Assembly (NCBI RefSeq): GCF_947305105.1
Contig: NZ_CAMZCS010000014.1
Span: 1-64,000 of the forward strand
Direction of reading: 5' to 3'
Origin: an uncultured Fibrobacter sp.
GTDB lineage: Bacteria; Fibrobacterota; Fibrobacteria; Fibrobacterales; Fibrobacteraceae
DNA: 64,000 nt
A program made the position numbers and the translations under genes. The notes under the pieces are model-generated. The model had not been told where the DNA came from and did not search any database. It saw nothing but the letters and a program-made list of their open reading frames with translations. Shown here in pieces: positions 21,078 through 62,009 of this stretch; the stretch's first letter is position 1, and every line of letters begins with the position of its first letter.

Positions 21078-23669
21078 TTAGTCCTTGACGCAGCGGATTG
21101 CCGTGAAGTGCCTGCGGTACTGCGAAATTTCCTTGGTAATCGCCTTGGGTTTACCTTGGCCTGTAGAATAATAATACATGACCGTATCTGCAGGGTTGTG
21201 AACGGCGAGGCACGCCTCCTGGTCGATAGACAGGGTCTGCTGATTTTGCCTGCCGTAGCTGAAGACATCGGCTTGCGTGTAGCAACCGTTAGGAACGATC
21301 CCGAAGCCGTACTTGTCCATGCCGTGATTTTTGGTTATTGTTTTTCCTACAGAATTGATGTATTCCCATCCGTAAACGGCTTTAAGGTCGATGCCCGCGG
21401 AATCGCCGACAAAGTCCAGCAGGTCGTCCCAGTCGCCTAGGGTCGGCACGTGCCATCCGCTAGGGCAAAGGGCCTCGGTGGAGTCAGAGACCAAGGGGTA
21501 CCTATAGTAGCGCCCGTACTTGGCGCAGGAATCCATGTAACAATAGCTTTTTGCGGAATCGGCAGCCTCGTAGCGCAGGCTTTCTGCCATCCAGGTGACT
21601 CCGTTCATCTCGACGGTCTTGTATTCCTGCCCGTCGCGGTCGTCGGTCAGTGTCCCGTATTCGCCGGTGTAGCCGTAGGCGACGGCGGTGTCGTTGACGC
21701 AGCGGACATTGAGGTAATAGGCTATCGAGGTAGACCCGACATACAGGGTATCTTTAAGGATGCTTTCGCTTTTGGAAGAGGTGAGGGTGTATGCCATGCT
21801 GTCCTTCTTAATGTCGCTGCTCCAATAGTTTTCACTTCCGCTACGATTGACACCTATGGCACTGCGGTCGAAGAAACCGTAGAACGAGGAATCGTTCCTT
21901 GCGTATCCGGACAGGGGCATCGAGAATCCAAATTCGTCTTTCCCGCCATAATAATTGGAAAGCAGGTGCTCGGCCTTGGTATCGAGCCCCCCGAAATAGA
22001 CAAGCGTGTCGAAGTCGGCCTTCGACGGCAGGTGCCATCCGTCGGGGCATGCGGTCTTTGCCTCGTCGAAGGTATAGTACCGCCCGAAGGTGCTGCAATA
22101 GTCGGAATAACGGTGGTCCTGGTAACAGAAGCTGTTTTCCGTTTCGTAGTTCAAGTTCTGCGACATCCACTTCTGCGGGCCGATAACAGTGGTCTTGTAG
22201 GTCTGGCCGTCGCGCGGGTCGGTGAACTTGCCGTAATTGAAGGAGGGATTCAAAAGCGAGTCCGTCATGTCGGGGGCGGAGCGGCTCTTGACGCAATAGT
22301 ACTGCTGGGCGGTGCTTTCGCGGAGGGTCCTGTCGGAATATGCCGCGTCGGAAGACTGGAGGAACGTGATTCCGTCTATCATGACGTCTTGAGCGGATTG
22401 GATGTTCAAGCCGTATGCGTTGAGGCCGTTTCTGTAATTCCAGCCGGTCTTGGACTTGAGCATGATTCCCGCGAAGCACTTGCCTCCGATGCTCTCGAAA
22501 AGTTCCGCCCAATCTTCCTCATCGGGGGTGTGCCAGCCGAAGGGGCAATAGTATTCCGTCCAGGATTCTATCTTGACGGGCGTCTTGACCCATTCTTGGT
22601 TCCCGATCTTGACGGATTTCTTCCCGCCGACATCGCCGTATTCGCATTTGTCCTTGCCGTCGACATTGCACGGCTTGACCTTGGGAGCCCATGCGGAATC
22701 CTTGCAGGTTTCGTCGTTGGATTTCACCGAGGCCTTGTCGTTCAAGTCGGGCCATGGGGTGGGGGCGTCACCCTTGATGCAGCGCAGTTGCGCGACCCTG
22801 GAATCTTTAAGCTTATCCTCCGAAGTACTGACATAGGTGACGTTGAACGGAGTGGTGCGTTCGGTTTCTGCCATGGCTATGCCCGTGTACAATTTCCCTG
22901 AGTTGCGGGTATTGTACGGTGTCCAGAAATAAAAATCGGTATTGACCGAAAATCCGTAGGCATCGGTTCCGCAGAGGTCGACCTTGGCGAAACAGTTGTC
23001 CTTGCTCATCAGGTTCCTGGCGCCGTCGGAATACTTGTAGTCAGAGAACTTGCGGCCTCCCGTGTTCGAGAACAGGGTCGCCCAGTCACTTCTTGTCGGG
23101 ATTCTCCATCCGTCAGGGCATATTCCCTGGACTAGCGTATCGCAAATGTTAGAAAGGGAGCAACCATTCGAAAGGGTGTCCATTATAGTTGTCCAGGTGT
23201 ACTTTCTCCCGTACTTTTTGCAGTCGGTATCGGTGGAGTCATAGCATTCGCTGCCAGATTCCGTTTTGTAGTTCAGGTTCTCGGCCATCCAAGTCTGTTC
23301 GCCGATCGTGACGGTCTTGTAGGTCTTGCCGTCGCGCTTGTTGGTGAATTTCCCCTTGACGACGGAGGAGGGGTCAACTACATAGTTGCCGGAGCTGCTA
23401 GACTTCTTGCTGCTGCTCGATTTCTTGCTCGAAGAGGAATCGTCTTCAGGATCAGAATCATCATCCGGTTCCTCGCTGCTCGAAGACGACTTTTTCTTTG
23501 AGTCGGATGAGTTTTTCTTGCTCGACGAAGAGTCGCTTTCCGAATCGGACGAGACGGAGGAACTGGAAGACATTTCCTCGTCGTCGGATTTTGCGTCGGT
23601 GGAGCTTTCACCGCTACAGCATAGGAGGAAAAACGGAAGAACCAATGCGAGGTAAGGTGCTATTCTCAT
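21078..23669 (-). CDS. Multi-domain FISUMP surface protein
   Basis: 863 residues carrying four copies of the Fibrobacter succinogenes major paralogous domain, the second degenerate. Signal peptide MRIAPYLALVLPFFLLCC with a poor lipobox (Cys at -1), then a Ser/Asp-rich linker to about residue 95. FISUMP copies lie at about 100-275, 335-470 (which lacks the WMAENL motif), 485-660 and 672-863. Each has (D)RDGQ-Y-K-T, Q-x-WM(A/S)(E/Q)(N/S)L, CPDGWH-P and a terminal (V/I)RC(V/I)K. The function of FISUMP is not established; surface exposure is inferred from the leader. Initiation has a GGAGAA upstream. It ends 15 nt before the Xer gene and may be co-transcribed with it. Confidence 0.88.
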   Translation of the reverse strand: MRIAPYLALVLPFFLLCCSGESSTDAKSDDEEMSSSSSVSSDSESDSSSSKKNSSDSKKKSSSSSEEPDDDSDPEDDSSSSKKSSSSKKSSSSGNYVVDPSSVVKGKFTNKRDGKTYKTVTIGEQTWMAENLNYKTESGSECYDSTDTDCKKYGRKYTWTTIMDTLSNGCSLSNICDTLVQGICPDGWRIPTRSDWATLFSNTGGRKFSDYKYSDGARNLMSKDNCFAKVDLCGTDAYGFSVNTDFYFWTPYNTRNSGKLYTGIAMAETERTTPFNVTYVSTSEDKLKDSRVAQLRCIKGDAPTPWPDLNDKASVKSNDETCKDSAWAPKVKPCNVDGKDKCEYGDVGGKKSVKIGNQEWVKTPVKIESWTEYYCPFGWHTPDEEDWAELFESIGGKCFAGIMLKSKTGWNYRNGLNAYGLNIQSAQDVMIDGITFLQSSDAAYSDRTLRESTAQQYYCVKSRSAPDMTDSLLNPSFNYGKFTDPRDGQTYKTTVIGPQKWMSQNLNYETENSFCYQDHRYSDYCSTFGRYYTFDEAKTACPDGWHLPSKADFDTLVYFGGLDTKAEHLLSNYYGGKDEFGFSMPLSGYARNDSSFYGFFDRSAIGVNRSGSENYWSSDIKKDSMAYTLTSSKSESILKDTLYVGSTSIAYYLNVRCVNDTAVAYGYTGEYGTLTDDRDGQEYKTVEMNGVTWMAESLRYEAADSAKSYCYMDSCAKYGRYYRYPLVSDSTEALCPSGWHVPTLGDWDDLLDFVGDSAGIDLKAVYGWEYINSVGKTITKNHGMDKYGFGIVPNGCYTQADVFSYGRQNQQTLSIDQEACLAVHNPADTVMYYYSTGQGKPKAITKEISQYRRHFTAIRCVKD

Positions 23670-35055: not shown

Positions 35056-36663
35056 ATGTGCAAAATAAAGATTTCTTATAGCGCCTTTATCGCAATAGTT
35101 GCTTTTTGCGGTGCCACAATCTTTACGGGATGCGGTGACGACAACAGTGCATCTGCAAATGACGATAGTTTGTCCTCGTCGGTGGAAAATTCGTCATGTT
35201 CCTCTCAAGGGAAATCTAGTTCTTCCAAGGATTCGGAAAAAGTTGATGCTGGTGATTCCTCCAATGAAAACAAAAAGGCTAAGTCGTCCAGTTCCGTTAA
35301 AGGCGATAATAAGTCCAGTTCTTCAAAAGAGAAAACCCTTGAAGAAAAACTTGGAAAATGCGAAGACAAGGGCCAGTTTGTAGTCCGTCACGTACAGGAT
35401 GATGATGGAAACTGGTATTCCTGTTATCGTAGCGAGTGGTTGGAAGGAATGCTCGAAGTAGAAGACCCGGAATGGGGCGAAGAACCTGATGACCAATCCA
35501 GCAGTTCAGCTGCGCATGAAGGCGATGTCCTTGTCGATAGCCGTGACGGAGAATCCTATAGGACGGTTTATATTGGCTATCAACACTGGATGGCTGAAAA
35601 TTTAAGATATCGTGCGGATGAATCTGATACGGCTAAGGCCGGAAAATACGGCCGCTATTATTCTTGGACAACGGCGATGGATACTGCAGAATCTCCTTGT
35701 GCTTTTGAATTGTGCAAGTTTAGCCGAGTCCAGAGACAAGGTATCTGTCCGGACGGTTGGCATCTTCCTTCTGCTGATGAATGGGAAATTTTTATCGATG
35801 AATTAAGAAAACTCGATTCGGACCCATTCAAAGTTGTTATCGATGAAAAAGACTGGGGCGAATCCGGTAATAATTTGACGGGATTTACCGCTTTGCCTAC
35901 AGGGTATTATTCTGGAGGGACCCGCTATAGATCCTTTCAAGCGCATTTTTGGAGCTCAAGCGTTCCTCGCGCTGGTTCAGTTTATCCGGAATATGCCAGT
36001 CATCTAAAAATTACTGAGGACAACATTGGTATAAATTCGATAGAAAAATATGTTGAAATGCCTGTTCGTTGTATAGAAAATTCAGAGGAGTCGGAATTGC
36101 TGGATTACCTGATCCAGAAGGAATATAGCGGTGCATATGGAGAATTGCTGGACCCGCGCGACGGAAAGAAGTACAAAACGGTTGTTCTGGAAAATAGGGA
36201 GTGGATGGCGGAGAACCTCGATTACGAAACTCCTGCGAGTGTCTGTGGTGGTGCTGCAGATAGCTGTGCTAAATATGGACGACTTTATCCTGACTCTGAA
36301 TACCGTAGTGTTTGCCCTGATGGTTGGCGTGTTCCCAATGATTCTGATTTCTTGGCTTTACGGCTTTTTAGTGGATTCGGCTATGTGATGGGACATTATA
36401 TGAAATCGACTTCGGGCTGGGTGGTGAGCGATTCCGTCAAAGAAGTGTATGATGGTAATGGGGCCAATGTATGGGGATTGAATATTCTTCCGCAAGGTGT
36501 TTATTCGGATTCGTTGTCGTATCAAAATGTTTATGAATATTCTGGATTCCGTATAGATTACGGAGAGAAAAACTATGTTTTCTATGTTGAAGCAAAGAAA
36601 AAAAATGGCAGGATCCGTGAACGTGATGGTTATTACTTTCCAGTCCGTTGTGTAAAGGAATGA
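35056..36663 (+). CDS. FISUMP lipoprotein with two domains
   Basis: 535 residues. The ATG at 35056 follows AAAGAGGT by 8 nt. Leader MCKIKISYSAFIAIVAF with lipobox IFTGC, Ser/Lys-rich linker to about residue 105, then one two-cysteine module (C-E-D-K-G...WYSC...W), then FISUMP domains at about 160-345 and 365-535, each with (S/P)RDG, WMAENL, CPDGWH-P / CPDGWRVP and VRC. Codon use is more A/T-rich than in the FISUMP genes at 51-62 kb and there is no collagen-like segment. It ends 9 nt before dut. Surface protein of unknown function. Confidence 0.87.
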   Translation: MCKIKISYSAFIAIVAFCGATIFTGCGDDNSASANDDSLSSSVENSSCSSQGKSSSSKDSEKVDAGDSSNENKKAKSSSSVKGDNKSSSSKEKTLEEKLGKCEDKGQFVVRHVQDDDGNWYSCYRSEWLEGMLEVEDPEWGEEPDDQSSSSAAHEGDVLVDSRDGESYRTVYIGYQHWMAENLRYRADESDTAKAGKYGRYYSWTTAMDTAESPCAFELCKFSRVQRQGICPDGWHLPSADEWEIFIDELRKLDSDPFKVVIDEKDWGESGNNLTGFTALPTGYYSGGTRYRSFQAHFWSSSVPRAGSVYPEYASHLKITEDNIGINSIEKYVEMPVRCIENSEESELLDYLIQKEYSGAYGELLDPRDGKKYKTVVLENREWMAENLDYETPASVCGGAADSCAKYGRLYPDSEYRSVCPDGWRVPNDSDFLALRLFSGFGYVMGHYMKSTSGWVVSDSVKEVYDGNGANVWGLNILPQGVYSDSLSYQNVYEYSGFRIDYGEKNYVFYVEAKKKNGRIRERDGYYFPVRCVKE

Positions 36664-51033: not shown

Positions 51034-52104
51034 ATGTCGAATTTGTTCTCTAGGTCGTCTTTGCGTGCTAACATAGTGACTGTGGCAATGGCTGCTTTCT
51101 TTCTCGCGGCTTGCGGTGGCGATGGCAATAAAGCCAATGAACCGGACCCTTCTGCCGAGGCCGATTTTGTAGTGGATACTTTCGGCGATCTTTCTGTTTG
51201 CACCGGCAACCGCGAAGGCGCGACCGCCTACGTGAAAGACGAAGATCACGATTACATCTGCACTAACGGTGATTGGGCCATCGACACCAACGCCGATACT
51301 CGCAAAAAATCAAGCAGCAGCAAAGACAAAGCGAAATCATCCTCCTCGCGTCATTCCGAGGACTCTTCCTCTTCGCGTCATTGCGAGGACTGTAAGGACG
51401 AAGCAATCTCCAGCAGCAGTTCGGCGAAATCTTCATCAAGTTCAGTCACTTTGGCCACGCCCTGCAAAACCGAAACGGAAGACAACTGCGAATACGGCGA
51501 GTTGGTGGATGCTCGCGATGGTCAGACATACAAGACGGTGAAAATTGGTGATCAATGGTGGATGGCCGAAAATCTGAATTATAAAGTAGACAGCAGCTGG
51601 TGTGGCGGTGGACGCGTTGAAAATGAAGGAGACTGCTCCAAGTACGGTCGTCTCTACACTTGGGCTGCCGCAGTTGGTAGGTCTGAAGATGATTGTGGCT
51701 ATGGCCATATTTGCAGCCTTTTCGGCAAGGTGCATGGCGTGTGTCCTGAAGGCTGGCTTTTGCCCGATACCACGGAATGGAGCAAACTGTTTACCGCAGT
51801 GGGCGGAGAAAGCGTTGCTGGCAAGATGCTCAAGGCGCAGACTGGCTGGGGCTGGAATAATTACAATGATTCAAGTGGTAACGGTACGGACGCCTACGGT
51901 TTCTCTGCGCTCCCTGCTGGTGGCAGATACAATGATGGCAACTTCATCAATGAAGGTCTCGACGCTAAGTTCTGGAGTGCCACTGAGGACAATAGCGACC
52001 GCGCCTACTACATGAGCCTGTTCTACCACAGCGATCATGCGTACTTGAACAACAGCCTCAAGCGCTTCGCATTCTCGGTTCGTTGCCTGAAGGACGATCC
52101 CTAA
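51034..52104 (+). CDS. FISUMP lipoprotein with in-frame palindromic element
   Basis: 356 residues. ATAGGAGGA precedes the ATG; leader MSNLFSRSSLRA with lipobox FLAAC. Residues about 50-85: one two-cysteine module (CTGNREGATAYV ... YICTNGDW). Residues about 90-145: Ser/Lys linker, of which codons from 51350-51410 come from the dispersed GTCATTGCGAGG...GAAGCAATCTC element. From about residue 150: one FISUMP domain (DARDGQTYKTVKIG, WMAENLNY, YGRLYTWAAA, CPEGW, NGTDAYGFSALPAG). The last third is the hypervariable segment (51922-52068), then SVRCLKD. No collagen-like part. First member of the array. Confidence 0.88.
   Translation: MSNLFSRSSLRANIVTVAMAAFFLAACGGDGNKANEPDPSAEADFVVDTFGDLSVCTGNREGATAYVKDEDHDYICTNGDWAIDTNADTRKKSSSSKDKAKSSSSRHSEDSSSSRHCEDCKDEAISSSSSAKSSSSSVTLATPCKTETEDNCEYGELVDARDGQTYKTVKIGDQWWMAENLNYKVDSSWCGGGRVENEGDCSKYGRLYTWAAAVGRSEDDCGYGHICSLFGKVHGVCPEGWLLPDTTEWSKLFTAVGGESVAGKMLKAQTGWGWNNYNDSSGNGTDAYGFSALPAGGRYNDGNFINEGLDAKFWSATEDNSDRAYYMSLFYHSDHAYLNNSLKRFAFSVRCLKDDP
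51350..51410. repeat. Palindromic element translated as lipoprotein linker
   Basis: A partial unit GTCATTCCGAGGA at 51350-51362, then a full unit GTCATTGCGAGG...GAAGCAATCTC at 51377-51410. It is the same family as the intergenic copy at 4761-4796. It lies in frame in the Ser linker of the lipoprotein and is read as R-H-C-E-D-C-K-D-E-A-I-S, adding two cysteines. Confidence 0.75.
51922..52068 (+). other. Hypervariable segment 1 of the FISUMP array
   Basis: 147 nt between the invariant ...CTCCCTGCTGGT and the invariant GCATTCTCGGTTCG. Framework codons such as TTC TGG AGT GCC, ATG and GCG TAC TTG are kept; many others differ from the other four genes mainly in codon positions 1 and 2 with third base C or T kept. 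Confidence 0.75.
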
Positions 52105-52147
52105 CCCCTTCAAAATCCACGCATTGACAATCTATCTATAAAACAAG

Positions 52148-52168
52148 GGCGCTTCGGGCGCCTTTTTT
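52148..52168 (+). terminator. Rho-independent terminator
   Basis: GGCGC-TTCGG-GCGCC followed by TTTTTT, 44 nt after the first array gene. Confidence 0.8.
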
Positions 52169-52277
52169 GTGCTGGTGCGTATAAATTGCTTGGTTTTGTA
52201 GGTCTTATATGGTCTGAGGTGGGGAAAAACATGATTTTTTTATTATATTTCGTTTAAAATAAAAAAAATGAGGAAAT

Positions 52278-53600
52278 ATGACGAATTTATTCTCTAAACA
52301 GTCTCCCTGGAGCTGCGCAGCAGCGGCAGGGGTCTTTGCACTTCTGTTTACCGCCTGTGGCGATGAGGTTACCGAAGTGACCGAGGTTAACCAGGTAGTC
52401 GGGATGCAGGTGCTGGAGGCGGGCGACGCCTTGCCCAAGTGCACCGCAGACAACGAGGGTGCGATGGTGTATTCCGTGGATTCTGCTGCAGCATACTACT
52501 GTGTTAACAGAAATTGGACCTCGATGAAGGGTAAAGACGGAAAAGACGGCGCCGATGGAAAGAATGGAAAAGATGGGAAGAATGGTACAAATGGGAAAGA
52601 CGGTGCCAAGGGTGACCCGGGCGTAAAAGGTGATTCTGGTGCAACGGGTAATAATGGCCTTTCTGCTTATGAAATCGCCAAAGCCGACGGCTATACGGGA
52701 ACTGAAGAAGAATGGATTACTTCGCTAAAAGGTGACCCAGGAGCCAAGGGCGACACGGGCGTGGCGGGTACCAGTTGCTCCGCCGAAGAAGATTCTGTCG
52801 GAGTAAAGATTACTTGTACCGACGGCAAGTCGTTTACGCTGAGCAATGGAGCTGATGGTAGTGATGGCAAGAATTGCGAAATTGCGCGTGATACGAATGG
52901 AGTTATCACCCTGACGTGTGGCGAAGATACAACGATGCTTTATAAAGCGATGTGCGGAACCAAACCTTACGATCCTGCAAAACAACTCTGTGACTTCCGA
53001 GACATGCAACTCTACAGGGTAGTGACCATCGGCGAACAGACCTGGATGGCGGAGAACCTGAACTATAAAACAGAAAATAGCTACTGTTACGGGGAGACCG
53101 CAAGCGATCCCAAGACAGAAAACTGCACCAAGTACGGTCGTCTCTACACTTGGGCTGCTGCGATTGATTCAGTCAAGCTTTATAAGGATAAGGCCCTAGA
53201 CTGCGGTTATGGTAAGACTTGTTCTCTGCCTGATACGGTGTACGGTATTTGTCCGCCGGGATGGCACTTGCCTGATTCCACGGAATGGAGCAAGCTGTTT
53301 ACCGCAGTGGGCGAAATAAGCGAGGCTGGCACGAAGCTCAAGTCGCAGACTGGCTGGAATGATTACAATGGTACAAGTGGCAACGGTACGGACGCCTACG
53401 GTTTCTCTGCGTTCCCTGCTGGTATCAGAAACGGCATTGGCTTCTATAAAGAGGGTCTCTGCGCTTACTTCTGGAGTGCCGCTGAGAAGAAAGATAGCTA
53501 CAACGCCTACCACATGGGTCTGGACTACAACTATGAGACTGCGTACTTGAACCGCATCAATGAGGACTTCGCACTCTCGGTTCGTTGCCTCAAGGATTAA
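52278..53600 (+). CDS. Collagen-like FISUMP lipoprotein
   Basis: 440 residues. Leader MTNLFSKQSPW, lipobox LLFTAC, then GDEVTEVTEVNQVVG shared with the later members. Residues about 50-85: two-cysteine module (CTADNEGAMVYS ... YYCVNRNW). Residues about 86-175: Gly-x-y repeats (GKDGKDGADGKNGKDGKNG and GPG-like GDPGAKGDTG) interrupted by LSAYEIAKADGYTGTEEEWI, a known spacer in bacterial collagen-like proteins. From about 250: FISUMP domain; hypervariable end at 53424-53570, then SVRCLKD. Probably a surface stalk carrying a variable head. Its 3' flank is followed by a ghost of another gene. Confidence 0.88.
   Translation: MTNLFSKQSPWSCAAAAGVFALLFTACGDEVTEVTEVNQVVGMQVLEAGDALPKCTADNEGAMVYSVDSAAAYYCVNRNWTSMKGKDGKDGADGKNGKDGKNGTNGKDGAKGDPGVKGDSGATGNNGLSAYEIAKADGYTGTEEEWITSLKGDPGAKGDTGVAGTSCSAEEDSVGVKITCTDGKSFTLSNGADGSDGKNCEIARDTNGVITLTCGEDTTMLYKAMCGTKPYDPAKQLCDFRDMQLYRVVTIGEQTWMAENLNYKTENSYCYGETASDPKTENCTKYGRLYTWAAAIDSVKLYKDKALDCGYGKTCSLPDTVYGICPPGWHLPDSTEWSKLFTAVGEISEAGTKLKSQTGWNDYNGTSGNGTDAYGFSAFPAGIRNGIGFYKEGLCAYFWSAAEKKDSYNAYHMGLDYNYETAYLNRINEDFALSVRCLKD
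53424..53570 (+). other. Hypervariable segment 2 of the FISUMP array
   Basis: 147 nt, same borders as the other segments. Two extra codons' worth of difference after GCC GCT GAG (AAG AAA GAT) relative to segment 1 are balanced elsewhere. Confidence 0.75.
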
Positions 53601-53619
53601 CAAGCGCCAGGACTAGCTA

Positions 53620-53667
53620 TTAACGCAAAACATTCTTGAACACCCGGGCGATTTCGCCCGGGTTATC
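53620..53667 (-). pseudogene. Ghost of the 3' end of the gene at 62010
   Basis: Sixteen codons including the stop (D-N-P-G-E-I-A-R-V-F-K-N-V-L-R-stop) match the C-terminus D-N-P-D-E-V-A-R-V-F-R-N-A-L-R of the protein encoded at 62010-63014, and the flanking GCGCCAGGA-TAG sequence also matches. It is cut off from any upstream part. The perfect stem ACCCGGGCG-ATTT-CGCCCGGGT inside it may serve as a terminator for both flanking genes. Confidence 0.8.
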
Positions 53668-53671
53668 TTTT
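53642..53671. terminator. Convergent terminator hairpin
   Basis: ACCCGGGCG-ATTT-CGCCCGGGT, perfect 9-bp stem, followed on the plus strand by TATCTTTT. It lies between convergent genes and within the ghost described above. Confidence 0.7.
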
Positions 53672-53678
53672 AACATGG

Positions 53679-54428
53679 TCAGTGCGAGACTCTAAAAGCC
53701 AAGCCGAATGTATGGCTTGTGTGGGATACAGTTTCACTGTAAATGGTCTTTTTCGTATGATTGTACAGGTTGCCTTGTTTGCTCTCAAGTTTGCCGATGG
53801 TATAGTTTAAAGCGAATCCGTAATTCCATAACCTGCTGAGCCGCCATTCTTTGCCAAATTCAAATTTGCAGTAGATATCTACAGGTGCAATCACTGTCGA
53901 TGAGTCTTTGTACACTTGGTTGTGGTCGTGTTCGGTCATTTGGATGATGTCAACGACAAAGCCTGCATTGATTCCTATGAAACTGCCGTACAAAGGATTC
54001 CCTTTGTCTTGAATGGGGTAGAATTCTCCGCCTCCACCAAAAAGGATTCTGAAAATGTCGTTATTGTTTTCCTTGAAAGAATAATTTTCGTCCTGTTGTC
54101 CGATATTTTTTTCTTCGTCTTTTTCTTCGTACGATCCTATGCCATACCCTAATCCGGCTACTCCGTAAAAGGAAACAATGTTGTTAAAGGATTTGCCGCA
54201 ACGGAGATCTAAAAGAGACAGGACTCCAGAAAATTCTTCCGTTGATTTTGAATCGTCGATAGACGATTCCACGTTGAATATGTTTGTCTCTGTTGTGTAG
54301 AAAAGTCCTAGGTTCGCAGAAAGGTAGAGCCCAAGGTGTTCTTGAAAGATTGGCTCGTTTTGGTTAGTTTCGTATTGTGCTAATGCACTTGTTACGACTA
54401 ACAGCAATGTCGAAACAATTCTTTTCAT
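53679..54428 (-). CDS. Outer-membrane barrel paralogue 1
   Basis: 249 residues; fifth and last in direction of transcription of a five-gene tandem family. Start at 54428 (MKRIVSTLLLVVTSALAQ signal peptide). The family plan is kept: short variable N-terminus, a GLGYGIGSYEE-type loop, FGGGGEFYPIQDKGNPLYG, a FEFGKEW-LSRLW-YGFALNYTIGKL strand pair, and the end HTFGLAFRVSH. No enzymatic motif; an 8-10 strand barrel with variable acidic loops is likely. Convergent with the FISUMP gene upstream in coordinate order. 23 nt after the next paralogue. Confidence 0.82.
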   Translation of the reverse strand: MKRIVSTLLLVVTSALAQYETNQNEPIFQEHLGLYLSANLGLFYTTETNIFNVESSIDDSKSTEEFSGVLSLLDLRCGKSFNNIVSFYGVAGLGYGIGSYEEKDEEKNIGQQDENYSFKENNNDIFRILFGGGGEFYPIQDKGNPLYGSFIGINAGFVVDIIQMTEHDHNQVYKDSSTVIAPVDIYCKFEFGKEWRLSRLWNYGFALNYTIGKLESKQGNLYNHTKKTIYSETVSHTSHTFGLAFRVSH

Positions 54429-54451
54429 GAGGGCTCCAGTCAAAGAATCTT

Positions 54452-55183
54452 TTAGTGCGTAATTCTAACCGCCAAACCGACGGTGTGACTGGATTGGGAT
54501 ATTTCTTCTGAGAAATTGGCATAGGAATCATTTTCATCCATGAAACCGATGGCGTAATTCAATGTGACGCCAAAACTCCAGCGTCTGCTGAACCACCAAT
54601 CCTTGCCGACTTCAAAGCGGAAAAAGAAATTTCCGATATCGGCGCAATCTATTTCGTCTTTATCGATATAATCAAAAGAATGGTCGGTATGGTAAATGTT
54701 GTCTATTGCTACACCGGCACTGAGCCCTAGGAATAGGCCATAAAGGGAATTATCCATGTCTTGGATTGGGTAGAATTCTACGCCTAAGCCATAAATAAAT
54801 CTATAGTCTTCATTGTGGCTTTCCGCCTCTTCAAAAGAAAACTCATTGAATTTTTCGCCGGTGTTTTTTTGCTCGTCTTCGTAGGAACCTGTCCCGTAGC
54901 TAAATCCGCCAGTTGCGTAAATAGATACTAGGTTTGCTATGGATATGCCGAGTCGGATTTCGTTGTGTGTTATGAGTCCTGAAAAATTATTCGTTTCCTC
55001 GTATGTGTATTTTTCGTATATGTCGGTCGTGGCCTTCGTTGTAGATGTATAAATGAATCCGAGGGCTTTATTGAAGTAGAAACCTCTATGGGCATGATAA
55101 TATGGATCGCTGCTGGGGGATGTTTCGTATTGGGCGAACACGCAAGATGCGATAAACAGGAGCGAAACGATAATCCTTTTCAT
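54452..55183 (-). CDS. Outer-membrane barrel paralogue 2
   Basis: 243 residues. Signal peptide MKRIIVSLLFIASCVFAQ. Carries YYHAHRGFYFNKALGF, GTGSYEDEQ, GVEFYPIQDMDNSLYG, FEVGKDWWFSRRWSFG and the end HTVGLAVRITH. Closest to paralogue 3 in the DWWFSRRWS strand. The loop after the second strand is Glu-rich and differs from the other copies. Likely co-transcribed with paralogues 1 and 3. Confidence 0.85.
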   Translation of the reverse strand: MKRIIVSLLFIASCVFAQYETSPSSDPYYHAHRGFYFNKALGFIYTSTTKATTDIYEKYTYEETNNFSGLITHNEIRLGISIANLVSIYATGGFSYGTGSYEDEQKNTGEKFNEFSFEEAESHNEDYRFIYGLGVEFYPIQDMDNSLYGLFLGLSAGVAIDNIYHTDHSFDYIDKDEIDCADIGNFFFRFEVGKDWWFSRRWSFGVTLNYAIGFMDENDSYANFSEEISQSSHTVGLAVRITH

Positions 55184-55255
55184 TTTAAGGCTTTTCCCTT
55201 TGCTGGGCTAGATGCGTATGGAATATGTTAAAATGACAAAATGCCTGTTGCTAAT

Positions 55256-55966
55256 TTAGTGCGATAGCCGGAGCGTCAGGCCGATTGCGTGATTCTTGTA
55301 GGTATCCCTTTCGTTGTCGTATTCACTTGTTGCATCGCCGGCTGTATAATTCAACGCGACTCCGTAACTCCAGCGTCTGCTGAACCACCAATCCTTGCCG
55401 ACTTCAAATCGTGCGAAATAGTAGACGAAATCATGATGGTCTAAAGCCATGTCGATTGAAAGGCCGATGGTGAGCCCGATGAAAATGCCATAGACTGGAT
55501 TCAACTTGTCTCGGATGGGATAAAATTCTGCACCGCCTCCAAAAAGGAATTTCAACAGTCTTTCATCACAATCGATTTTTTCGTTAAGGGTGGTGTCTTC
55601 GGCATAATCGGAGACATATTCATAATGTCCGCTTCCAGTGCCGACGCCTAGAGCTCCATATATGGATATTAAGTTAGCGATTGAAGCTCCGAGTCGAATT
55701 TCCTCGTAAGGGAGCAGATAACCGTTAATCTTTGAGTCTTCCATGTTCTTGCTTGTGGTAAAACCGTAATGGTGACGAAGGTAGGTATAGGCAATCGATA
55801 AACCATTCGAAAAATAGAACCCCCTGTGTTGGTGATAGTACAAATCAGGTTGCTCGATCAAGTAAGACGATGCGGGGAGGGCTTGATAATTTTGAGCCTG
55901 TCCAATTTGATTTTGTGCGAAGATGCTGGCTGCAATCAGCAGTATTGTTGTAATTGTTTTTTTCAT
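55256..55966 (-). CDS. Outer-membrane barrel paralogue 3
   Basis: 236 residues. I start at 55966 (MKKTITTILLIAASIFAQ), since the longer frame upstream is the end of paralogue 4 in another frame. Contains DLYYHQHRGFYF, GTGSGHYEYVSD, FGGGAEFYPIRDKLNPVYG, FEVGKDWWFSRRWSYG and the end HAIGLTLRLSH. The gap to paralogue 2 is 72 nt and AT-rich with a TATGTTAAAATG-like stretch, so an internal promoter is possible. Confidence 0.85.
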   Translation of the reverse strand: MKKTITTILLIAASIFAQNQIGQAQNYQALPASSYLIEQPDLYYHQHRGFYFSNGLSIAYTYLRHHYGFTTSKNMEDSKINGYLLPYEEIRLGASIANLISIYGALGVGTGSGHYEYVSDYAEDTTLNEKIDCDERLLKFLFGGGAEFYPIRDKLNPVYGIFIGLTIGLSIDMALDHHDFVYYFARFEVGKDWWFSRRWSYGVALNYTAGDATSEYDNERDTYKNHAIGLTLRLSH

Positions 55967-55989
55967 GAGGAACCCTGACAATGAAATGT

Positions 55990-56718
55990 TTAGTGTGCAA
56001 TCCTGAACGCCAGGCCGAACGTGTTGCTTGAAATGGTCTCTACGTTCGTCTGGCCTTCGTATTGCCCGACATCTGATTCTGAATCTCCGAGGGTATAGCT
56101 GATTGCAACGCCGATGCACCAGCTCCTGCTAATCCACCACTCCTTACCGACCTCCAGTCGTATAAGGGCGTTGATCAGGGTTGTTGTTTTTGTCTTTTCA
56201 TCGTCTTCTTTTTCGAGATGGGTGATTTTGTCAAACATCATGCCCAGGGAAGGTCCGAAGAAAAGCCCGGAGAATATACTATTGTCGTCCCTGATGGGGT
56301 AAAATTCTCCGCCTATACCAAAAGCGTACCGTGTGTCCGAACTTGCATTGTCTTCGAAGTATTTGTTTTCATAATCTTTATCGGAATTGCTTTCGGGATC
56401 TTTGACGGAATATTTGGTTTCTTCGCTGTATGAGCCCGACGCATAGCCCACTCCAAGGAGGGCGTAAATAGAGGCGAAGTTCGCAATGGATATGCCAATC
56501 CGCGATTCGCTGTAAAAAAGTGGGCCGGAAAAAAGAAGTATTTCTTTTTCGGAACCGAAGGATCTGTTATACTTGGTTGTCTGGTCAATAGAGGTGTAAG
56601 CAAACGCAAGGTTTTGCGAAAAATAAAAGCCCCTGTGTTCTCCTGGATATGTCGCTGCACTGATTTGCGTAGATGCGCAGAGTGCTGCTAAGAGTATCGC
56701 AGAAAAGACTTTTTTCAT
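55990..56718 (-). CDS. Outer-membrane barrel paralogue 4
   Basis: 242 residues from the ATG at 56718 (MKKVFSAILLAALCASTQIS), preceded by AGAAGGAAATACAA, a strong ribosome site. Lacks the YYH part of the N-terminal motif (EHRGFYFSQNLAFAYTS) but keeps GGEFYPIRDDNSIFSG, LEVGKEWWISRSWCIG and the end NTFGLAFRIAH. Its 5' flank (GGATAAAATATATATA region) is copied next to the ghost at 57595-57700, showing that the leader and gene were once duplicated together. Confidence 0.85.
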   Translation of the reverse strand: MKKVFSAILLAALCASTQISAATYPGEHRGFYFSQNLAFAYTSIDQTTKYNRSFGSEKEILLFSGPLFYSESRIGISIANFASIYALLGVGYASGSYSEETKYSVKDPESNSDKDYENKYFEDNASSDTRYAFGIGGEFYPIRDDNSIFSGLFFGPSLGMMFDKITHLEKEDDEKTKTTTLINALIRLEVGKEWWISRSWCIGVAISYTLGDSESDVGQYEGQTNVETISSNTFGLAFRIAH

Positions 56719-56825
56719 TTGTATTTCCTTCTTGGAACCGGAATGCGGATAAAATATATATATAAATGATAAATAGCGTATCAATAAAAAAGAAATGAGA
56801 CGCCCTCTACGGCTTCAATCGGTTC

Positions 56826-57587
56826 CTAGTGCGCAATCCGGATGGCTAGGCCGAAGGTGTGGCTTGTTGTGGTTTGCTCCTCTTTTCTGGAACCGCTGTA
56901 ATCGTTGTTAGGGGATTCCGTGTGCATAAATCCGCCGAAGGTGTAGTTGAACGATGCACCAACTCTCCAGCGCGTGCAGAACCACCAGTCGTAACCGGCT
57001 TCAACTCGGCCAAAGAAGTTGTGGAAGGTCTCGTCGGAGTTCTGGAAGTGATATTCGGAGGTGATTTCCGCCGCTTCAAAAGCAAAGCCCCCGCAAAGTC
57101 CGAAAAATAGGCCGTAAAGCAGGCTTTCCTTGTCTTGAAGCGGGTAAAAATCGGCCCCTAGGCCGAGAAGCATTCTCATGGTTGTTGCGGATGCTTCCTC
57201 CGTCCTTTCATAATCGTCTTCTTTATTGCGATACGTGTCTTCAATGTCGCCTGTACCGAGGCCGAATGCAAAAGTTCCGTAAATACCGGCAACGTTGAGG
57301 TAGTAAGCGCCAAGCCTGGCTTCGATAAGGGGAGGTATCCAACCTTTGAATGAAATATCGTCGGTCCCTTCGTCTCCCCAGTTCTCTCTTTCGTAATGCT
57401 TGCTTAAGGATTCATAGGCGAAGGTGAATACGGTCGCGAAATATATTCCGTCGTGTGCGTGATAGTAGTAGTCCGTTTTGTCGACGGTACTTTTTGTCTC
57501 GTTGCCGGTTTGATCAAGTTGTGCAAAAGTGAACGATGCAAATAAAAGCGTTGCCGCTATGATTCTGGTGTAGATAGATTTTTTCAT
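56826..57587 (-). CDS. Outer-membrane barrel paralogue 5
   Basis: 253 residues, first in transcription order. Signal peptide MKKSIYTRIIAATLLFASFTFAQ. Contains YYYHAHDGIYFATVF, GLGTGDIEDTYRN, GLGADFYPLQDKESLLYG, VEAGYDWWFCTRWRVG and the end HTFGLAIRIAH. More divergent than the others in its loops. Directly upstream lies the 65-nt ghost of a sixth copy. Confidence 0.85.
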   Translation of the reverse strand: MKKSIYTRIIAATLLFASFTFAQLDQTGNETKSTVDKTDYYYHAHDGIYFATVFTFAYESLSKHYERENWGDEGTDDISFKGWIPPLIEARLGAYYLNVAGIYGTFAFGLGTGDIEDTYRNKEDDYERTEEASATTMRMLLGLGADFYPLQDKESLLYGLFFGLCGGFAFEAAEITSEYHFQNSDETFHNFFGRVEAGYDWWFCTRWRVGASFNYTFGGFMHTESPNNDYSGSRKEEQTTTSHTFGLAIRIAH

Positions 57588-57594
57588 ATTCTTG

Positions 57595-57659
57595 TTAGTG
57601 TGCGATCCTGAACGTTATGCCGAAATTGCCAACAGCATCGTAGAAAAGAATTTTTTCAT
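57595..57659 (-). pseudogene. Collapsed ghost of a sixth barrel paralogue
   Basis: Reading the minus strand from 57659: MKKFFSTMLLAISA-stop, a typical family signal peptide close to that of paralogue 4, fused directly to F-R-I-A-H-stop in another frame (57595-57612), the family C-terminus. Everything between is missing. This is what an internal deletion of a whole gene body would leave. Confidence 0.85.
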
Positions 57660-57747
57660 CTGTATTTCCTTCTTGGATCAGGATTGCGGATAAAATATAT
57701 ATAAATGGTAAAAAGCGTATCAACTAATAGCGTTTATTATAAAAAGA

Positions 57748-57757
57748 GGGGGGGGGG
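57748..57757. promoter_or_regulatory. Homopolymeric G tract upstream of an array gene
   Basis: Ten consecutive G, 52 nt before the ATG of the lipoprotein gene at 57810, flanked by AAAAAG and CTTTTT which can pair around it. Such tracts change length by slippage and can tune transcription or translation. No other run of this length was noticed in the window. Confidence 0.6.
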
Positions 57758-57809
57758 CTTTTTGAGCTTTTTTTATTATTTTTTGCTTAAATCTTCTTAA
57801 AGAGGAAAT

Positions 57810-59141
57810 ATGTCGAATTTATTCTCAGAACAGTCTCCCTGGCGCAATCGGAGCGTTGCGATAGGGTCCATTTTGTTTACCGCGTCAATGTTTGCCGCCT
57901 GTGGCGACGAAGTCACCAAAGTGTCCGAGGTTACCCAGGTAGTCGGGATGCAGGTGGTGGAAGGAGGCGAAGCCTTGCCCAAGTGCACCGCAGACAACGA
58001 GGGGGCGATGGTGTATTCCGTGGATTCTGCGGCTGCTTACACTTGTTTCGGCGGGGCCTGGACCTCGAACAAGGGCAAGGACGGAAAAGATGGCGCCGAT
58101 GGAAAGAATGGAAAAGATGGGAAGAATGGTGCAAATGGAGCGACTGGCGCAGCCGGTTCGGCTGGGACTGATGGCGATGACGGTTCCTATTGCACGGCGA
58201 AGGCCCTGAAAAACGGCAACGGCTACAAGATTGTATGCGGTGGCGATTCCGTCGGCGTTGTGCTGAATGGGCAGGACGGTGCCAAGGGTGACTCGGGTGT
58301 AAAAGGTGATTCCGGTGCGACGGGCAATAACGGCCTTTCCGCTTATGAAATCGCCAAAGCTGGCGGCTACGAGGGATCCGAAGAAGAATGGATTGCTTCG
58401 CTGAAAGGAGACACGGGTGCCAAGGGCGACTCGGGCGTGGCTGGTTCCGGTTGCTCAGTCAAAGAAGACTCTGTCGGAATAGAGATTACTTGTTCCGGCA
58501 AGTCGTTCACGCTGAACCACGGAGCCGATGGCAAGGATGGAAAAAGTTTAGCGGATCGCTGGATGGTGGATCACCGCGACAACCAACTCTACAAGGTAGT
58601 GACCATCGGCGATCAGACCTGGATGGCGGAGAACCTGAACTATAAAACTGAAAATAGCTGGTGTGGTGGCGGAAACGGTGAGAACGAAGGTGATTGCACC
58701 AAGTACGGTCGTCTCTACACTTGGGCTGCTGCAGTTGGCAAGTCCGAAGATGAATGCGGTTACGCCAAAATTTGTAGGCTTTCCGGCAAGGTGCGTGGCG
58801 TGTGTCCTGAAGGATGGCACTTGCCCGATACCACGGAATGGAACAAGCTGTTTACCGCAGTGGGCGGGAATAGCACTGCAGGCAAGAAGCTCAAGTCGCT
58901 GACTGGCTGGGTTGATAATGGCAACGGTACGGACGCCTACGGTTTCTCTGCGCTCCCTGCTGGCGTAAAGTACTACAATGGCGACTTCAGCGGTGCTGGC
59001 GACATCGCTAACTTCTGGAGTGCCACTGAGTACGGTAGCGTCGGCGGCGACAAGATGGGTCTGGGCTACAGCAGTGAGCGTGCGGACTTGAACGTCCGCG
59101 GTAAGAACGACGCATTCTCGGTTCGTTGCCTCAAGGACTAG
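57810..59141 (+). CDS. Collagen-like FISUMP lipoprotein
   Basis: 443 residues. AAAGAGGAAAT then the ATG; leader MSNLFSEQSPW with lipobox MFAAC, then GDEVTKVSEVTQVVG. Residues about 50-85: two-cysteine module. About 86-230: Gly-x-y repeats with a second cysteine pair (YCTAKALKNGNGYKIVC) and the spacer LSAYEIAKAGGYEGSEEEWI. From about 255: FISUMP domain; hypervariable end 58965-59111. Long DNA stretches are identical to the next gene, including the whole spacer block, pointing to gene conversion. A 10-G tract lies in its upstream region. Confidence 0.9.
   Translation: MSNLFSEQSPWRNRSVAIGSILFTASMFAACGDEVTKVSEVTQVVGMQVVEGGEALPKCTADNEGAMVYSVDSAAAYTCFGGAWTSNKGKDGKDGADGKNGKDGKNGANGATGAAGSAGTDGDDGSYCTAKALKNGNGYKIVCGGDSVGVVLNGQDGAKGDSGVKGDSGATGNNGLSAYEIAKAGGYEGSEEEWIASLKGDTGAKGDSGVAGSGCSVKEDSVGIEITCSGKSFTLNHGADGKDGKSLADRWMVDHRDNQLYKVVTIGDQTWMAENLNYKTENSWCGGGNGENEGDCTKYGRLYTWAAAVGKSEDECGYAKICRLSGKVRGVCPEGWHLPDTTEWNKLFTAVGGNSTAGKKLKSLTGWVDNGNGTDAYGFSALPAGVKYYNGDFSGAGDIANFWSATEYGSVGGDKMGLGYSSERADLNVRGKNDAFSVRCLKD
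58965..59111 (+). other. Hypervariable segment 3 of the FISUMP array
   Basis: 147 nt. At the codon pair before the GCC/GGC position it has GTC GGC where the others have GAC CGC, TAC AAC, TAC GTC and TAC CAC. Borders are identical to the other segments. Confidence 0.75.
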
Positions 59142-59192
59142 CTTTTAGCCTCACTCCACATTGTTTTTGAAAATTTTTTAAAAAGAGGAAAT

Positions 59193-60527
59193 ATGTTGAA
59201 TTTATTTTCCAAACAGTCACCCTGGGGTTGGCGAATCGCCGCGATCGGGTCCGTTTTGTTTATCTCGGCAATGTTTGCCGCCTGTGGCGACGAAGTCTCC
59301 AAAGTGACCGAGGTCTCCCAGGCCGCCGGGGTGCAGGTGGTGGATGCAGGCAAAGCCTTGCCCAGCTGCACCGCAGACAACGAGGGTGTGATGGTGTATT
59401 CCGTGGATTCTGCTGCGACTTACACTTGTATCGGCACGACTTGGACCTCGATGAAGGGCAAGGACGGAAAAGATGGCGCCGATGGAAAGAATGGAAAAGA
59501 TGGGAAGAATGGTGCAAATGGAGCGGCTGGCGCAGCCGGTTCGGCTGGGGCTGATGGCGATGACGGTTCCTCCTGCACAGTGAAGGCCCTGAAAAATGGC
59601 AACGGCTACAAGATTGTATGCGGCGGCGATTCCGTCGGCGTGGTGCTGAATGGGCAGAACGGCGCCAAGGGCGACTCGGGCGTAAAAGGTGATTCCGGTG
59701 CGACGGGCAATAACGGCCTTTCCGCTTATGAAATCGCCAAAGCTGGCGGCTACGAGGGATCCGAAGAAGAATGGATTGCTTCGCTGAAAGGAGACACGGG
59801 TGCCAAGGGCGACTCGGGCGTGGCTGGCACCAGTTGCACTGCTGAAGAAGTTTCTGACGGTGTAAAGATTACCTGTCCCGACGGCAATTCGTTCACGCTG
59901 CGTAACGGAACTGACGGTAAAGATGGAAACGACGGTTATATAGACGGCTGGATTTTGGATTATCGTGACAAGCATCTATACAGGACAGTGACCATCGGCG
60001 ATCAGACCTGGATGGCCGAAAACCTGAACTACGAAGTTGAAACAGGTAGCTACTGCTACAATGATAGTGCCAAGTATTGCGAAAAGTACGGTCGTCTCTA
60101 CACTTGGACTGTTGCAGTTGGCAAGTCCGAAGATGAATGCGGTTACGACAAAACTTGCGGGCTTTCCGGCAAGGTGCGTGGCGTGTGCCCTGAAGGCTGG
60201 CACTTGCCTGATACCACGGAATGGAACAAGCTGTTTACCGCAGTGGGCGGGGATAGCACTGCAGGCAAGAAGCTCAAGTCGCAGTCTGGCTGGAGCTGGA
60301 ATGATGACGATGGTACAAGTGGCAACGGTACGGACGCCTACGGTTTCTCTGCGTTCCCTGCTGGCAGCAACTTCGACGCTTGGGGTGACGGCACTTCCTT
60401 CTGGAGTGCCACTGAGCGCAATAGCTACGTCGCCTACGGCATGGGGCTGTTCTACGAAACTGAGTATGCGTACTTGGTCTACTGCGATAAGGACGTCGCA
60501 TTCTCGGTTCGTTGCCTCAAGGATTAG
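59193..60527 (+). CDS. Collagen-like FISUMP lipoprotein
   Basis: 444 residues. Same leader context (AAAGAGGAAATATG) and lipobox MFAAC. Two-cysteine module CTADNEGVMVYS ... YTCIGTTW, Gly-x-y region with SCTVKALKNGNGYKIVC, spacer, second Gly-x-y run and FISUMP domain with an extra C-Y-N-D-S-A-K-Y-C insert where paralogues have WCGGG. Hypervariable end 60366-60497 is one block shorter (132 nt). It starts 51 nt after the previous gene with no terminator between, so the three genes are probably one transcript. Confidence 0.9.
   Translation: MLNLFSKQSPWGWRIAAIGSVLFISAMFAACGDEVSKVTEVSQAAGVQVVDAGKALPSCTADNEGVMVYSVDSAATYTCIGTTWTSMKGKDGKDGADGKNGKDGKNGANGAAGAAGSAGADGDDGSSCTVKALKNGNGYKIVCGGDSVGVVLNGQNGAKGDSGVKGDSGATGNNGLSAYEIAKAGGYEGSEEEWIASLKGDTGAKGDSGVAGTSCTAEEVSDGVKITCPDGNSFTLRNGTDGKDGNDGYIDGWILDYRDKHLYRTVTIGDQTWMAENLNYEVETGSYCYNDSAKYCEKYGRLYTWTVAVGKSEDECGYDKTCGLSGKVRGVCPEGWHLPDTTEWNKLFTAVGGDSTAGKKLKSQSGWSWNDDDGTSGNGTDAYGFSAFPAGSNFDAWGDGTSFWSATERNSYVAYGMGLFYETEYAYLVYCDKDVAFSVRCLKD
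60366..60497 (+). other. Hypervariable segment 4 of the FISUMP array
   Basis: 132 nt, five codons shorter than segments 1-3 in its first half. The second half aligns codon for codon (AGC TAC GTC GCC TAC GGC ATG). Confidence 0.75.
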
Positions 60528-60576
60528 ACTTGGCCTCAATCCACATTGTTATGAAAATTTTTTAAAAAGAGGAAAT

Positions 60577-61917
60577 ATGTCGAATTTATTCTCCAAACAG
60601 TCACCCTGGGGCCGGCGGAGCGCCGCGATCGGGTCCATTTTGTTTGTCTCGGCAATGTTTGCCGCCTGTGGTGACGAAGTTACCGAAGTGACCAAGGTAA
60701 CCCAGGTGGTCGGGATGCAGATGGTGGAAGAAGGCGATGCCTTGCCCGAGTGTACCGCAGACAGCGAAGGGGCGATGGCCTATTCCGTGGATTCTGCGGA
60801 GGCTTACACTTGTATCGGCGGGACATGGACCCCGATAAAGGGTAAAGACGGGAAAGATGGCGCCGATGGAAAGAATGGAAAAGATGGGAAGAATGGTGCA
60901 AATGGAGCGGCTGGCGCAGCCGGTTTGGCTGGGGCTGATGGCAAAGACGGTTCCTCTTGCACGGTGAAGGCCCTGAAAGACGGCAACGGCTACAAGATTG
61001 TGTGCGGCGGCGATTCAGTCGGCGTGGTGCTGAATGGGGAAGACGGGCAGGACGGTGCCAAGGGCGACTCGGGCGCAAAAGGTGATTCCGGTGCGACGGG
61101 TAAAGACGGTCTTTCCGCTTACGAAATCGCCAAAGCTGGCGGCTACAAGGGGTCCGAAGAAGAATGGATTGCTTCGCTGAAAGGAAACACGGGCGCCAAG
61201 GGAGACACGGGCAAGGCTGGTACCAGTTGCTCTGCCGTAGAAGTCTCTGACGGAGTAGAGATTACCTGTACCGACGGCAAGTCGGTTAAGCTGCGCAACG
61301 GAGCCGATGGTAAAGATGAGTTCGGCTGGATGTTGGACTCCCGTGACAGGCAGTTCTACAGGATAGTGACCATCGGCAAACAGATCTGGATGGCGGAGAA
61401 CCTGAACTACGCCCCTGTGTTTAGCTGGTGTGGTGGCGGAAGCGGTGAGAACGAAGGTGACTGCTCCAAGTACGGTCGTATTTATGAATGGGCGAGAGCG
61501 ATTGACAAGCCTGAGAAATGCGCCATTGGCAAGACCTGCGTCCTTTCCGGCAGGGTACGAGGTTTGTGTCCTGAAGGATGGCATTTGCCGGATTCTGCGG
61601 AAGTTGAAGAGTTGTTTACCGCAGTGGGCGGAGAAAGCGTTGCTGGCAAGATGCTCAAGGCGCAGACTGGCTGGAATCGTAAATACGGCGACGGTGACGC
61701 CAACGGTACGGATGCCTATGGTTTCTCTGCGCTCCCTGCTGGCACGATGGCCGACGGCCATTTCGCTCATGGTGGTTACTATACTGAATTTTGGACTATC
61801 ACTCAGTACGATACCTACCACGCCTACAGCATGGGTTTTTTGGGCGACGAGGATAGTGCGAGCTTGGGTATCTTTGGCAAGGACAGGGCAATCTCTGTCC
61901 GTTGCCTCAAGGATTAA
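60577..61917 (+). CDS. Collagen-like FISUMP lipoprotein, most divergent copy
   Basis: 446 residues. The ATG at 60577 follows AAAGAGGAAAT; the frame stays open far upstream but only as a read-through of the previous gene in another frame. Lipobox MFAAC; two-cysteine module CTADSEGAMAYS ... YTCIGGTW; Gly-x-y region with an added GEDGQDGAKG; FISUMP domain in which W-A-R-A-I replaces the usual WAAAV. The hypervariable end (61744-61887) is the most different, also altering some framework codons (FWTITQ for FWSATE). Last gene of the array. Confidence 0.9.
   Translation: MSNLFSKQSPWGRRSAAIGSILFVSAMFAACGDEVTEVTKVTQVVGMQMVEEGDALPECTADSEGAMAYSVDSAEAYTCIGGTWTPIKGKDGKDGADGKNGKDGKNGANGAAGAAGLAGADGKDGSSCTVKALKDGNGYKIVCGGDSVGVVLNGEDGQDGAKGDSGAKGDSGATGKDGLSAYEIAKAGGYKGSEEEWIASLKGNTGAKGDTGKAGTSCSAVEVSDGVEITCTDGKSVKLRNGADGKDEFGWMLDSRDRQFYRIVTIGKQIWMAENLNYAPVFSWCGGGSGENEGDCSKYGRIYEWARAIDKPEKCAIGKTCVLSGRVRGLCPEGWHLPDSAEVEELFTAVGGESVAGKMLKAQTGWNRKYGDGDANGTDAYGFSALPAGTMADGHFAHGGYYTEFWTITQYDTYHAYSMGFLGDEDSASLGIFGKDRAISVRCLKD
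61744..61887 (+). other. Hypervariable segment 5 of the FISUMP array
   Basis: 144 nt. The most divergent segment; it also changes framework codons (ACT ATC for AGT GCC, TTT TTG for CTG). Right border GCA then ATC TCT GTC CGT TGC, slightly diverged from the others. Confidence 0.7.
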
Positions 61918-61958: not shown

Positions 61959-62009
61959 TTTCCGAGGCGCAGAATCTGCGCTACGCAGTAGCGCCAGGAT
62001 TAGTTTTTT

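Follow-up and report, generated by a model that had tools for sequence, protein, structure and literature searches.

The question raised by this locus is whether the hypervariable 3' ends of five lipoprotein genes, found in a 64,000-nucleotide stretch of DNA (the window, which is contig C14 of its genome), were written by a diversity-generating retroelement (DGR), and where the machinery that wrote them might be. The initial annotation had taken these segments for DGR variable regions (VRs). That reading is supported by the match to a template repeat (TR) in a relative, G055, by an adenine bias of the changes and by the conservation of the framework around them, and from these comparisons of sequence we conclude with high confidence that the five segments are VRs of a DGR. 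The genome comprises 3.57 Mb in 72 contigs and is 99.97% complete; the genus is Fibrobacter, according to the titles of the relatives. A profile search gave 113 matches to PF09603, or FISUMP, the 'Fibrobacter succinogenes major paralogous domain', which is present in many copies. To our knowledge the domain has no established role.

FISUMP was found above the curated cut-off in five of five genes with PF09603 and in all four genes scanned with TIGR02145 (genes 1-4). The five proteins are lipoproteins, as read from the lipobox in the sequence, with the FISUMP domain at the C-terminal end, and genes 2-5 contain collagen-like repeats (Table 1). Each of the five segments sits, in reading frame, at the 3' end of one of these genes, as had been stated from the beginning; the length first given (132-147 nt) was too short, as the homologous stretch extends slightly further, from about TAC-GGT-TTC to TCG-GTT-CGT-TGC. 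The genes had also been called near-identical, which they are not, the upstream DNA of genes 1-4 differing by 16-32%. More FISUMP domains are found in the window at 35566-36657 and 21084-23312. Between the FISUMP genes, on the minus strand at 53679-57587, there are five tandem paralogues of about 250 aa each, which are perhaps outer-membrane barrels; three of the five were scanned against Pfam and gave no match, and relatives of these paralogues again stand beside FISUMP genes in L104, L106, L115 and L117.

Table 1. Position and evidence for the FISUMP genes, their VRs and the hairpin in the window
Feature	Position	Strand	Evidence
FISUMP lipoprotein gene 1, 356 aa, DGR target-type	51034..52104	+	ORF; PF09603 6e-30, TIGR02145 7e-60; lipobox FLAAC
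VR of gene 1 (template-homologous)	51895..52086	+	Gapless alignment to G055 TR; mismatches 30/68 A, 19/85 non-A; C/T end in 27/28 AAY columns
FISUMP lipoprotein gene 2, 440 aa, collagen-like repeats	52278..53600	+	ORF, PF09603, TIGR02145
VR of gene 2	53397..53588	+	Mismatches to G055 TR 29/66 A, 20/84 non-A
FISUMP lipoprotein gene 3, 443 aa, collagen-like repeats	57810..59141	+	ORF, PF09603, TIGR02145
VR of gene 3	58938..59129	+	Mismatches to G055 TR 37/68 A, 20/85 non-A, p = 1e-4
FISUMP lipoprotein gene 4, 444 aa, collagen-like repeats	59193..60527	+	ORF, PF09603, TIGR02145
VR of gene 4, five codons shorter	60339..60515	+	Mismatches to G055 TR 36/60 A, 20/78 non-A, p = 6e-5
FISUMP lipoprotein gene 5, 446 aa, collagen-like repeats	60577..61917	+	PF09603
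VR of gene 5, diverged or decayed	61717..61905	+	Mismatches to G055 TR 37/66 A, 34/84 non-A, p = 0.07; NNR 5/27
DNA hairpin GCGCTAC-GCA-GTAGCGC, 3' of VR 5	61978..61994	+	Same hairpin near other VRs; stretch folds z = -5.4

The codon columns quoted in the initial annotation, in which bases 1 and 2 vary and base 3 is C or T, were exact on recheck. Each of genes 1-4 has C or T as third base in 23-27 of its 25-28 variable codons. Over the 28 columns where the template has asparagine, a third base that is free to be chosen is C or T in 42 of 44 cases in these four genes, where the codon use of the other window genes predicts 27.9 (p = 6.5e-7), and the residues K, E, Q, M and W make up 6 of 108, against an expected 19% (p = 4e-5). 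The FISUMP domains of the genome itself, collected as protein-profile matches and hence blind to codons, form two classes in the template-asparagine columns, a VR-like one with 5% NNR codons (n = 19) and a non-VR one with 33% (n = 16), and are nearly alike in the remaining columns of the same stretch (51% versus 45% NNR). This profile-based test replaced a genus-wide one on VRs fetched with an AAC-bearing template, which is query-biased. Genes 1-4 belong to the VR-like class, gene 5 is intermediate, and the one further FISUMP stretch of the window that allowed an alignment, at 35881-36072, falls in the non-VR class with ordinary codon use. The preference of the genome for C-ending codons, which had been put forward as a point against a DGR, is thus insufficient on its own, and codon bias as sole cause of the NNC/NNT pattern is rejected by the third-base statistics together with the non-VR control. 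Retroelement hypermutation has left its mark on at least 19 FISUMP copies of this genome.

A DGR reverse transcriptase (RT) was matched in 17 of 80 genomes of the genus, and some of these RTs are broken. Several relatives have RTs with the motifs IGNLTSQ and YVDDM, and directly upstream an N-rich extra copy of a FISUMP 3' end. In G055 a FISUMP target, an Avd-like gene, the TR and the RT follow in this order, and another FISUMP target comes later, an arrangement that is standard for DGRs; the Avd-like protein matches bAvd at E = 0.016, below the Pfam cut-off. One part of the TR reads AAC AGA AAC AAC AAT GGC AAT TTC AAC AAT GCC GGC AAC AAC GCC AAC TTC TGG and a later part AAC ATG AAC TTG AAC TAC AAC AAC GAG AAT GCC AAC ATG AAC AAC AAC AAT AAG. 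The window segments align over 64 codons to the TRs of G055 and of a further relative, G028, both of which lie directly upstream of DGR-type RTs. The G055 TR matches them codon for codon, with AAC or AAT at the hypervariable codons, and it agrees with genes 1-4 on whether the third base is C or T in 24/28, 21/27, 23/28 and 21/25 columns, respectively. A template of the kind that was wanted at the outset is accordingly present in the same genus, upstream of a DGR-type RT. As controls, the G055 VR differs from its own TR at 30/68 A and 0/85 non-A positions, and the G028 VR at 27/61 A and 1/92 non-A positions. It had also been objected that the conserved codons ATG, GAG and AAG contain A, which is no objection because the G055 TR has the same codons and its VR mostly keeps them.

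Some other matches in the genus were set aside. The RVT_1 match L031 is a non-DGR RT that resembles a group II intron RT, L032 and L040 are non-DGR RTs without the DGR SQ motif, and the top genus match to the predicted template (87%, in G038) is a VR inside an ORF and not a TR. DGR RT genes interrupted by stop codons were seen in L062/L048 (G020), L053 (G086) and L058 (G042), and the DGR core therefore decays in Fibrobacter. A second, divergent RT class, 28-30% identical, occurs in L054-L057 (G078, G072, G084 and G038) with a short N-rich stretch upstream, RNNNNNAWNFNNNGNFNNNNFNN, and is probably another DGR type in Fibrobacter.

Genes 1-4, for which the G055 TR is not the cognate template, differ from it at 0.44-0.60 of the A and 0.22-0.26 of the non-A positions (p 1e-2 to 6e-5), and gene 5 has an A excess at p = 0.07 only. 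Given this 22-26% of non-A mismatch to a non-cognate TR, the A-specificity of the window genes rests partly on comparing VRs with one another. Pairwise, genes 1-4 differ in 64% of bases 1-2 of the template-N codons and in 10% of the VR framework, and their silent codons differ by 8% in the framework and by 23% upstream. In 13 VRs of the window type, base 2 is A in 56% and base 3 is C or T in 97%, and with a reference reconstructed from the VRs themselves, framework A is mutated in 10% and non-A in 3% (p = 2.5e-4). Towards sister species, genes 1, 2 and 4 differ mostly by 2-8% in the VR framework, mostly by 15-29% in the 450 bp upstream and by about 60% in the variable bases; the framework of VR 2 differs from a VR of G038 at 2/108 positions, next to upstream DNA that differs by 22%. 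The framework of gene 3 differs from relatives by 8-12% and is no better kept than the best-matching upstream DNA (8-10%). Homogenised silent sites in combination with randomised chosen codons are the trace of mutagenic retrohoming and not of selection with point mutation. Gene 5, whose framework is 18-26% different from the other four, is probably a weaker, decayed VR, and taken alone it would not pass as one.

The same genome has a second set of VRs on contigs C60, C18 and C70, with a different and nearly uniform framework. The C60 gene has no difference over 780 bp upstream from a gene in the genome G069, followed by 44 differences in or just after the VR. As counted with a reference reconstructed from VRs, 38 of 43 differences in the VR are at template A (p = 1e-15), and since the 780 identical bp adjoin a VR that is changed mainly at template A, the rewriting of the C60 VR is recent. 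G069 is a bin of 77% completeness and 6% contamination, and its contig could come from a closer strain than the species label says, which would make the rewriting more recent and not less. Rewriting of VRs thus appears, from this pair of sequences, to be recent on the scale of species divergence. DGRs are also found on viral contigs (IMG/VR, L203-L214), with a FISUMP VR, a TR and an RT about 55-60% identical to that of G055, and phage copies with 98-100% identical upstream DNA differ in 30-44% of bases 1-2 of the variable codons. At L213:3841 the repeat upstream of the RT is poor in asparagine and has substituted residues in common with its VR, as if the template had been overwritten or were decaying.

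An AlphaFold2 model of the FISUMP domain (pLDDT 94.8) has as its best structural neighbours CarF, the adhesin InvE, the C-terminal domain of Legionella Lcl and C-type lectins, with moderate scores (Z 6-9). A search of PDB sequences with the domain gave no significant relative, and Foldseek with the model no match at E <= 0.001. The C-type-lectin-like fold that had been predicted from the window is consistent with the model and with the matches to InvE, Lcl and C-type lectins at Z 6-8.4. We know of no case of Lcl as a DGR target. Lcl (8q4e) has collagen-like repeats ahead of a C-terminal domain with a C-type-lectin-like fold, just as genes 2-5, and the likeness is structural (VIA-align Z 8.2, rmsd 2.3, 99 residues aligned). 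As DGR targets, then, the genes have homology to a template (the TRs of G055 and G028), changes concentrated at template A in genes 1-4, and the VR at the 3' end of the gene in a C-type-lectin-like domain. The FISUMP VR genes likely encode a family of binding proteins on the cell surface whose ligand sites vary.

Several VRs, here and in related genomes, are followed at a distance of 65-97 nt by a hairpin of the form GCGCTACG[AC]AGTAGCGC (in the window and at L004:2145, L021:3256, L222:1759 and L223:1409), which is judged from its sequence a possible target-site element. The genome has four copies only, three of them after VR genes. The hairpin lies 72 nt downstream of gene 5 and is absent after genes 1, 3 and 4, and for the IMH a conserved GTTCGTTGC was seen; gene 2 has a possible hairpin remnant. 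Hairpins or cruciforms of phage DGRs are 4-34 bp from the VR (PMC3240598), so that the one described here is further away. The C60 gene has no hairpin where its G069 twin has one, apparently lost by deletion between GGACTAG repeats.

No RT was found in this genome with the RVT_1 profile or with a DGR RT protein, although identical searches do find RTs in relatives, and there is consequently no RT of the DGR clade ([IVL]GxxxSQ) to complete a cassette. Nor was a template repeat found with two reconstructed templates, one for each VR set; they matched only FISUMP genes, at best with 86%, apart from a single match of 29 bases on C20. The Avd-like protein of G055, a query used without a positive control, had no match at E <= 10. 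The framework predicted for the window-type template, TTCTGGAGTGCCACTGAG-AAC-AAT-AGC-AAC-AAC-GCC-TAC-AAC-ATG, has no cognate TR in the 80 genomes of the genus, where only the G055 TR (86-87%) and other non-cognate TRs appear, and on viral contigs exact degenerate patterns matched neither a window-type nor a C60-type template. The search for RT and template suggested in the initial annotation thus led to a template of this kind, upstream of an RT, at the level of the genus, in G055, and failed for both in this genome. The segments are therefore VRs that a DGR has written, in an assembly that lacks the DGR core. With the searches for a complete DGR empty, we keep our claim to DGR-written VRs, which is very likely their nature. 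As no machinery is resident in the assembly, the genome keeps the products of a hypermutation system that seemingly was lost, or was missed by the assembly.

The most likely explanation is that the core is absent from the strain, through recent loss or patchy presence in the population, and has left orphan VRs behind, and we prefer it among three accounts of the absent machinery. A DGR RT and its Avd partner would have made cDNA from a non-coding TR, placing random bases wherever the TR has A, and this cDNA would have replaced the 3' end, encoding the C-type-lectin-like domain, of several FISUMP lipoprotein genes. Each replacement would alter up to 28 surface residues and restore the framework, and a third base of C or T keeps stop codons out. 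The core would then have been lost recently, or come and go in the population, leaving the orphan VRs.

The cognate core could instead be in the cell, hidden in an assembly gap between FISUMP repeats outside the 72 contigs. C60 (7.0 kb) and C70 (3.4 kb) carry multiple FISUMP domains and the assembly therefore breaks at these repeats, the G055 RT sits between two FISUMP VR genes, and the rewriting is recent. We still find such a gap quite unlikely in an assembly of this completeness, where two VR sets with different frameworks would require two missing TRs, and when contiguous relatives in 20-30 contigs (G027, G030, G057 and G061) have such VRs with no DGR RT detected. It is also somewhat unlikely that the core is not resident at all, and that mobile DGRs on phages or strain-variable islands rewrite chromosomal FISUMP VRs in trans and then leave. 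The patchy and partly broken DGR RTs of the genus, the FISUMP DGRs on viral contigs and the recently rewritten VRs in genomes with no detected RT would fit, but the phage TRs found have other frameworks, and the viral contigs have neither a window-type nor a C60-type template (exact patterns). It would make part of the Fibrobacter FISUMP family a chromosomal library of retroelement-rewritten surface receptors with mostly non-resident writing machinery, on which cores that are transient, mobile or rare in the population would act in trans, a picture that we offer tentatively and with considerable doubt. Very improbable, finally, is ordinary diversifying selection on a ligand-binding surface with gene conversion among FISUMP paralogues and no retroelement. 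There are 113 domains with mosaic stretches common to paralogues, and recombination is able to spread a framework, but this explains neither the fixed third bases beside saturated bases 1-2, nor silent sites better conserved in the VR framework than upstream, nor the 780 identical bases adjoining a rewritten VR, nor the match, codon by codon, to TRs that adjoin genuine DGR RTs.

The 19 or more hypermutation-marked FISUMP copies would give a relative of a rumen cellulose degrader variable surface binding proteins, with phages, other cells or plant material as examples of possible ligands. The general question of how VRs are kept freshly rewritten where no RT is seen in the genome becomes testable. 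Multi-locus DGRs with incomplete loci, remote targets and a core that varies structurally within the population are known from Thiohalocapsa PB-PSB1 (PMC10907252). Its incomplete loci and remote targets are shared with Fibrobacter, and its strain-variable core is a precedent, but there the core is present in the genome and diversification in the population was directly observed, neither of which is the case here. Isolates of Treponema denticola without RT and TR keep VR target genes, which were called leftovers of lost DGR cores (PMC4891356). Orphan VR lipoproteins recognised through the TR of relatives are common to both; unlike in Treponema, the cognate TR is found in no relative of our genome, two or more VR frameworks occur, and in one pair the rewriting adjoins 780 identical bases. 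DGRs with Fib_succ_major (FISUMP) targets have been published from human gut metagenomes and Bacteroides phages (PMC4159848, PMC8143477), and these too have the target at the 3' end of a lipoprotein-type gene and the adenine logic from TR to VR. Their RT and TR adjoin the target, whereas Fibrobacter has many dispersed FISUMP VRs and no core in the assembly. Both FISUMP targets and leftover VRs without an RT are thus already published, and Fibrobacter is a new and clear case.
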